Source: Chitinophagaceae bacterium (lineage in GTDB: Bacteria; Bacteroidota; Bacteroidia; Chitinophagales; Chitinophagaceae). Taken from it: a stretch of DNA of 64,000 bases. The position numbers and the translations under genes were made by a program. The stretch covers positions 57,275 through 121,274 of the forward strand of contig CANCSS010000003.1 of the NCBI GenBank assembly GCA_947380905.1. Direction: 5' to 3'. Below the pieces are notes generated by a model. The model searched no databases. It worked only from the letters and a program-made list of their open reading frames with translations, and had not been told where the DNA came from. Shown here one piece after another: positions 55,608 through 64,000 of this stretch; positions within the stretch are counted from its first letter, which is position 1; each line of letters starts with the position of its first letter.

Positions 55608-55608
55608 G

Positions 55609-55680
55609 TAGAGCGTACGGGATTCGAACCCGTATTACCTCCGTGAAAGGGAGGTGACCTAACCCTTAGTCGAACGCTCC
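55609..55680 (-). tRNA. tRNA-Glu (anticodon TTC)
   Basis: On the minus strand GGAGCGT pairs with ACGCTCT (G-T at the first position) as the acceptor stem; CCTCC-CTTTCAC-GGAGG is the anticodon arm with TTC; GGGTTCGAATCCC-type T-arm is present. About 72 bases with discriminator A and no encoded CCA. It decodes GAA/GAG. Confidence 0.93.
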
Positions 55681-55704
55681 AGGTTCACTATGTTATTAGG
55701 GTCG

Positions 55705-55736
55705 CAAAAATAGGTCGCAAACCCTTTACTGCCAAA
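55705..55736 (-). promoter_or_regulatory. tRNA-Glu promoter
   Basis: On the minus strand TTTG (55733-55736), exactly 20 bases, then TATTTTTG (55705-55712): a complete match to the Bacteroidota primary-sigma consensus. Initiation is expected near 55698, about 18 bases before the tRNA. A 9-base word GGTCGCAAA occurs twice (plus strand) across the -7 region. Confidence 0.75.
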
Positions 55737-62956: not shown

Positions 62957-63706
62957 ATGGCAAGGTATTTTATTGAAGTAAGTTATGACGGGACTTTGTA
63001 TGGCGGATTTCAAATACAAAGCAATTGTGAAACCATACAAGGGGAAGTAGAAAAAGTTTTTGAAACCTTTTTTAGAACTGCCATTCCTTTAACAGGCGCT
63101 TCCAGAACAGATGCAGGCGTACACGCTTTGCAAAACTTTTTTCATTTTGATACCGACTTAAAAATAGAGCAAAAGCAGTTGTATAATTTTAATGCGATGT
63201 TGCCAAGTAGTATTGCTATTAAAAATATGTATGCTGTTCCAGCCGAAGCCCACGCTCGCTTTGATGCAATTTCAAGATCTTATATTTACAATTTACATAT
63301 CCAAAAAAATCCATTTTTAGATGGGCGTTCTTGGTATTATCCTTTCCCGGTAGATAGGGCGTTGATGCAAATCGCCACCGATTCCTTGTTGACCTACACC
63401 AATTTTGAAAGCTTTTCTAAGAAAAATACGCAGGTAAACACCTTTGAATGCGCCATTTCAAAGGCTTCTTGGGAGGATACGGCGGATGGATTTTCGTTCC
63501 ATATCAGCTCCAATCGGTTTTTAAGGGGGATGATTCGAGGATTGGTAGGCACTTTGTTACAGGTAGGTCGAGGACAAATAAGCTTGGAAAAATGGCATGA
63601 AATTGTTTTAGCCAAGAATGAACAATGGGTCGATTTCTCCACCCCCGCCCATGGATTGTATTTATCTGCTATAAATTACCCCGATTATTTAAAAAAAGTG
63701 GGTTAG
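62957..63706 (+). CDS. truA: tRNA pseudouridine synthase A
   Basis: 249 residues. Catalytic Asp in GASRTDAGVHAL; VSYDGTLYGGFQIQ at the N-terminus; FLRGMIRGLVGTLLQVGRG near the C-terminus. Modifies U38-40 in the tRNA anticodon arm. Preceded by a 128-base AT-rich spacer without a clear promoter. Confidence 0.94.
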   Translation: MARYFIEVSYDGTLYGGFQIQSNCETIQGEVEKVFETFFRTAIPLTGASRTDAGVHALQNFFHFDTDLKIEQKQLYNFNAMLPSSIAIKNMYAVPAEAHARFDAISRSYIYNLHIQKNPFLDGRSWYYPFPVDRALMQIATDSLLTYTNFESFSKKNTQVNTFECAISKASWEDTADGFSFHISSNRFLRGMIRGLVGTLLQVGRGQISLEKWHEIVLAKNEQWVDFSTPAHGLYLSAINYPDYLKKVG

Positions 63707-63708
63707 CC

Positions 63709-63732
63709 AAAAGCCAATACTAGTATGGCTTT
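63709..63732 (+). terminator. candidate terminator after truA
   Basis: AAAGCC-(palindromic ATACTAGTAT core)-GGCTTT forms a 6-bp outer stem with an inner self-complementary core, 3 bases past the truA stop. Only three T residues follow, so it is weak. Confidence 0.45.
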
Positions 63733-63786
63733 CGGTACATAATTCACAGGTTTTGAACGTTTTGAACGGAAAAACATTCAAAATAT

Positions 63787-63828
63787 TAGCCAATATATTT
63801 GGCTAGTAGCTGTGACTCCTTATCTTTG
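63787..63828 (+). promoter_or_regulatory. tandem promoter P1 with overlapping dyad
   Basis: TTTG (63798-63801), 19 bases, TATCTTTG (63821-63828): full consensus. TAGCCAA-TATAT-TTGGCTA (63787-63805) is a perfect 7-bp dyad whose right arm contains the -33 box. A boxA-like GTTCTCTGA follows at 63864-63872. Confidence 0.75.
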
Positions 63829-63918
63829 CCGCCCGCTAGCGATAAAAGGTCGCGAATCGGATTGTTCTCTGAGGCAGTTTTTCAGCAAAATAAAGTCCAA
63901 AAAACTTTAAAATACTTT

Positions 63919-63958
63919 CACCAATAATTGGTGGAACTAAATAACAGCTGTATCTTTG
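63919..63958 (+). promoter_or_regulatory. tandem promoter P2 with overlapping dyad
   Basis: ATTG (63927-63930), 20 bases, TATCTTTG (63951-63958). CACCAAT-A-ATTGGTG (63919-63933) is a perfect 7-bp dyad over the -33 box. Bases after the -7 (GCCGTCCC) repeat those after P1 (GCCGCCC). A boxA-like GTTCTTCGA lies at 63983-63991. Likely the leader of a stable-RNA operon beyond the window. Confidence 0.72.
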
Positions 63959-64000
63959 CCGTCCCTCTTTAAAAAAAGAGTAGTTCTTCGAAATTATGTG

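Follow-up and report, generated by a model that had tools for sequence, protein, structure and literature searches.

Tandem promoter cassettes with boxA-like words in the probable rRNA operon leader of a Chitinophagaceae bacterium

The DNA analysed here, a stretch of 64 kb referred to as the window, comes from a Chitinophagaceae bacterium. Its right end most probably represents the 5' part of an rRNA (rrn) operon leader, cut by the end of the contig, in which tandem housekeeping promoters are each followed by a nut-like antitermination site and would be under growth-rate or stringent control via a C-rich discriminator. This judgement applies to the reading as a whole, and it is based on the sequence of the window and on comparison with relatives.

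Contig C3 (121274 bp) physically ends at position 64000 of the window, and the genome is a 1.97-Mb draft, 82% complete, consisting of metagenome-derived contigs. A 16S gene was not found in this assembly, and the operon was therefore placed by synteny. The gene truA, encoding tRNA pseudouridine synthase A (62957..63706, + strand; an open reading frame with a match to PF01416), lies upstream of the rrn operon in relatives as a conserved neighbour. Among the loci collected by TruA protein or leader DNA, about 50 have a 16S start downstream, and Rfam confirmed 16S in 11 of the 20 loci checked. The named relatives retrieved with TruA are Chitinophagaceae, several of them labelled Sediminibacterium. 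Within the same genus, 16S starts ~550 nt past the truA stop and is present in every locus whose contig reaches far enough; the gap between the two genes lacks a protein-coding gene and is occupied by three promoter units, designated P1, P2 and P3. An earlier note on this DNA had proposed that an rRNA operon, rather than a protein-coding gene, lay just outside the window, and this is borne out by synteny, as 16S is what follows in relatives. Between truA and P1 we also observed, right after the truA stop, a terminator-like near-palindrome (AAAAGCCAATACTAGTATGGCTTTCGG, 63708-63733) that also holds CCAATA and is poorly kept in relatives, and, at 63751-63784, two copies of a direct repeat, TTTTGAACG, with an A-rich stretch. 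TTGAACG followed by A-tracts, upstream of P1, recurs in most of the genus and could be a UP-like element.

Two of the three units lie within the window, both on the + strand. In P1, the -33 box TTTG (TTTGG; 63798..63801), conserved in 31 of 31 same-genus sequences, stands 19 bp before the -7 box TATCTTTG (63821..63828), which fits the Bacteroidota consensus TAnnTTTG (PMC7366714) and is also conserved in the genus. These boxes are followed by a conserved C-rich discriminator/start region, CCGCCCG (63829..63835), of a kind also present at tRNA and ribosomal-protein promoters, then by a 5' RNA hairpin predicted by folding (outer CCG...CGG, inner stem GCGAU/GUCGC; 63833..63860) and by the boxA-like word GTTCTCTGA (63864..63872), recognized by genus alignment and boxA scoring. 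The corresponding parts of P2 are the -33 box ATTG (ATTGG, in several relatives TTTGG; 63927..63930), located 20 bp before the -7 box, a -7 box that again reads TATCTTTG (63951..63958; seen in the sequence and in the genus alignment), the C-rich region CCGTCCC (63959..63965; genus alignment), a predicted hairpin CUCUUU-AAAA-AAAGAG (63965..63980) and the boxA-like word GTTCTTCGA (63983..63991), identified in the same manner as that of P1. From the -7 box of P1 to that of P2 the distance is exactly 130 bp. The earlier note had described two repeated units with shared parts; its coordinates and motifs check out and both promoter units are real, but relatives have three. P3 falls past the contig end of the window. 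In each of the 21 complete leaders from the genus, it is located ~184 nt before 16S and reads TTTG-N20-TACCTTTGCACCCC.

Counted from TTTG, the spacing is N19 in P1 and N20 in P2 and P3, and the -7 box words of the units are TATCTTTG and TACCTTTG. P1, P2 and P3 align in all 21 complete leaders, while the sequence between the units drifts. Both boxes fit, at the expected spacing, the Bacteroidota housekeeping promoter of the sigma-ABfr type (TTTG at -33, TAnnTTTG at -7; PMC7366714). Relative to this consensus, the units are extended by TTTGG, by the Y and C in TAYCTTTGC and by a C-rich block, CNNYCC, that is absent from the consensus as quoted (PMC7366714). In the alignment of relatives, the agreement of the units in promoter, discriminator and boxA parts far exceeds what chance would give. 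A further -7-like word, TATATTTG (63794-63801), overlaps the P1 -33 box; it is conserved in the genus and has no obvious -33 partner.

The unit can be summarized as -33 TTTG(G), N19-20, TAYCTTTG, C-rich CNNYCC, a 5' hairpin and a boxA-like GTTCTTTGA. Leaders of Chitinophagaceae contain 1-5 such units, usually 3-4 (four in 15 of 25), with a period of typically 103-130 bp, and leaders drawn from the class Bacteroidia also contain 1-5 (two in 15 of 28). A C-rich start was among the criteria by which units outside the genus were chosen, so that the discriminator composition of those units is to some extent circular; within the genus, plain alignment places the C-rich block in all three promoters. 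In one locus, L116, two adjacent cassettes of 107 bp (at -355 and -248 relative to 16S) are identical at 103 of 106 positions, which shows that the whole cassette of promoter, hairpin and boxA-like word was duplicated recently.

With respect to the boxA-like words, 55% of units match GTTCTTTGA at 8 or more of 9 positions, against 1.5% in shuffles, and 77% match at 7 or more, against 11%. The counts are based on a 9-position match score, which supersedes a regular expression that also caught other words such as CCTCTTTAA. The word of P3, GATCTTTGA, does not vary within the genus and nearly matches the consensus. Together with the fact that cassettes do duplicate, as in L116, this might suggest that P3, next to 16S, is the only promoter of consequence, P1 and P2 being duplicates that are weak or in decay. 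We find this quite improbable, as every one of the 21 complete same-genus leaders retains the three units, together with the boxA-like words of P1 and P2, in spite of the drift between units. Our preferred reading is that each promoter is followed by a nut-like antitermination site, which NusB, encoded in this genome, would bind. GTTCTT words were also seen past the promoters of tRNA operon leaders (L217 on G000:C32, L224 on G000:C50, and L208), for example CATCCCAAAATTTGGGATAGTTCTTTCA and, for tRNA-Gly, TAAAAATAGTTCTTGAACAA, a hint that tRNA transcripts, too, may carry signals for antitermination.

A hairpin is predicted after the -7 box, with its 5' arm starting in the C-rich block. When single sequences were folded and compared with shuffles, the mean z was -1.17 for 173 units and -0.31 for upstream control segments, and only 30% of the units were individually significant at 0.05. 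Covariation in the P3 stem rests on one compensatory C-G/G-C double change, and the paired arms of P1 and P2 look co-varied by eye. With RNAalifold on MAFFT alignments, neither P1 nor P2 yielded a consensus stem, probably because the stems had slipped out of register in the sequence alignment. Taking into account that stems most often start 3-5 nt past TTTG, inside the C-run, we considered whether the conserved C-run serves mainly as the 5' side of a hairpin, with a role in RNA stability or processing, and not as a control discriminator. This is unlikely in our view. CNNYCC is also present at promoters of ribosomal-protein and tRNA genes where a following hairpin is not evident, such as that of rpmB (TACCTTTGCCGTCC-GTAAAAAATT), and the several protein-gene sites of this kind imply that the block is more than a stem arm.

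A discriminator role is consistent with the distribution of the block in the genome. The feature common to all units is C-N-N-Y-C-C just downstream of the -7 box. The pattern TANNTTTGCNNYCC has 38 matches in this genome, compared with 8 for the reversed pattern, and 49 compared with 8 in the relative G034. By our own reading, ~25 of the 38 sites, and 25 of 30 inspected in G034, lie in front of genes for stable RNAs or translation, or of genes closely linked to these. At rrn, the sites are P1-P3. At tRNA genes, they precede those for His, Glu, Phe, Arg, Ser-Pro, Leu, Lys, Gln, Met, Gly, Asn, Asp and Val. Pfam-confirmed protein genes with such a site encode the ribosomal proteins S10, S12, S20, S21, L13, L19, L21, L28, L34 and L35, as well as IF-1, GroES, trigger factor, SRP54 (Ffh), NusB, RNA polymerase beta (rpoB) and a class II (D/K/N) tRNA synthetase. 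Within the window, the only intergenic TANNTTTG sites with a C-rich block are P1, P2 and the tRNA-Glu promoter TATTTTTGCGACCC (55699-55712, - strand), upstream of the tRNA-Glu gene (55608-55680, - strand). A G+C-rich discriminator, as expected of a stringently controlled class, is common to stable-RNA and ribosomal-protein promoters here. In E. coli, G+C-rich discriminators mark promoters sensitive to DksA/ppGpp (PMC7822876), and by analogy growth-rate or stringent control may act through the C-rich discriminator in this organism, whose genome encodes a DksA/TraR-type zinc-finger match. At locus L201 of G034, a nusB-family gene lies behind a CNNYCC promoter, TAGCTTTGCACCCC; a feedback link from the antitermination factor to rRNA control is possible. 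A standalone CarD was rejected as an rRNA-promoter regulator, as the sole PF02559 match sits in an open frame of 1132 aa, which from its length looks like the repair protein Mfd.

The earlier note had suggested, from a dyad placed precisely on the -33 box of both promoters, a common regulator (growth-rate or stringent control) or a shared structural role. Perfect 7-bp dyads do overlie both boxes: TAGCCAA (63787-63793) and TTGGCTA (63799-63805) with a loop of 5 at P1 (63787..63805), and CACCAAT (63919-63925) and ATTGGTG (63927-63933) with a loop of 1 at P2 (63919..63933), the latter being equivalent to CACCAA-N3-TTGGTG with a loop of 3. Such dyads, with loops of 0-6, number 68 in the 64-kb window, or ~1 per kb, and the occurrence of two in an intergenic stretch of 294 bp has a p value of 0.056 (dinucleotide shuffles). 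By themselves, the dyads are only marginally unusual. The perfect P1 dyad is present in 0 of 30 other same-genus sequences, most relatives reading GTATACAATATATTTGG, and what is kept in the genus is CAA-N5-TTG (p = 0.007). The P2 dyad is partly kept within the genus, with a mean of 5.7 of 7 matches against 4.1 for a column-permuted null (p < 0.001; 31 same-genus sequences), and L050 has a perfect dyad with different letters, CTACCAA/TTGGTAG. That the dyad exceeds permuted left arms, and that a different perfect pair occurs in L050, make some constraint in P2 likely. On the other hand, the dyad decays within the genus in L010, L012, L051 and L045, and by-eye inspection of leaders outside the genus revealed no evident P2 dyad, the bases to the left of TTTGG being mostly GAATAAAA-like. 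In P3, no dyad was detected in same-genus sequences (p = 0.22).

The conservation in P2, the CAA-N5-TTG of P1 and the presence of CCAATAAACTTGG in the -33 region of a fMet-tRNA-like promoter of this genome would agree with the dyads serving as operators, bound at P1 and P2 by a dimeric regulator in competition with RNA polymerase. However, the right arm is in any case forced to TTTGG as the -33 box, the P1 dyad is perfect in this genome only, P3 has none, and loops of 5 and 3 would be hard for one rigid dimer to accommodate. A single shared operator is therefore unlikely, and we regard the operator reading as very improbable. No dyad of constant spacing is common to the three promoters, and a shared dyad operator was rejected as the common element; the P2 dyad may still play a minor part. 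Shared growth control of the promoters, as such, is plausible. The promoter mentioned above precedes a fMet-tRNA-like sequence (G000:C28:7884-7923; L156, L183), has a CCGTCC block in addition to CCAATAAACTTGG, and is the nearest echo of the P1 dyad arrangement in the genome.

Returning to tandem promoters with a nut-like site each, we propose that three housekeeping-sigma promoters drive the rrn operon, with predicted transcription starts at P1, P2 and P3. Each promoter would open a cassette of -33 and -7 boxes, a C-rich discriminator/start region, an RNA 5' hairpin and a boxA-like word, on which NusB-S10 would load and render the polymerase antiterminating. With one nut-like site per promoter, any polymerase would meet at least one, whichever promoter it had used. 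The tandem promoters may raise polymerase loading on an operon that is seemingly single-copy; G034, a relative with a 100%-complete genome, has one 16S, which is weak evidence for a single copy because rRNA repeats collapse in assemblies. The C-rich discriminator plausibly leads to a short-lived open complex that is open to control by ppGpp/DksA or by the initiating NTP, as judged by analogy with E. coli (PMC7822876). Being common to the promoters of tRNA and translation genes, it is a likely handle for growth-rate or stringent control.

Tandem rrn promoters are already known in E. coli and mycobacteria, as is the -33/-7 code of Bacteroidota. The E. coli rrn promoters P1 and P2 are roughly 120 bp apart and share one nut-like site (a boxB-boxA-boxC leader). 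The leader described here resembles that arrangement in its tandem promoters and in the order of predicted hairpin and boxA-like word, and differs from it in having three promoters with one predicted site each instead of two with a common site. It also shares a G+C-rich discriminator with E. coli rrnBP1 (PMC7822876). In mycobacteria, with their low-copy rrn, the multi-promoter leader of rrnA (HMPR) has two to five tandem promoters, which are 103 bp apart in M. kumamotonense (PMC10218544). Common to both systems are a seemingly low-copy operon, tandem promoters past a conserved gene and a conserved leader motif bearing boxA (PMC10218544), whereas here a predicted hairpin and a boxA-like word accompany each promoter, the promoters are of the Bacteroidota -33/-7 type and the neighbour is truA rather than murA. 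A literature search returned no account of tandem rrn promoter-hairpin-boxA cassettes or of a C-rich discriminator class in Bacteroidota; it missed most subscription papers and is weak evidence of novelty.

More broadly, rrn operons of Bacteroidota may evolve by tandem duplication of cassettes, placing antitermination sites in series, and CNNYCC may define a growth-control class of promoters in the phylum covering rRNA, tRNA, ribosomal proteins, IF-1, rpoB and nusB. We advance this wider proposal tentatively, leaning slightly against it. The control of ribosome synthesis in Bacteroidota is poorly known next to that in E. coli, and the promoter code is unusual. A mark that singles out, by sequence alone, the promoters of rRNA, tRNA and translation genes opens growth-rate and stringent control in a major phylum to direct testing. 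The cassette design, in which each promoter has its own antitermination site and the pair is repeated in tandem, suggests how strong and processive transcription could be sustained on a low-copy rrn operon, and how the number of promoters might evolve instead of the number of operons.
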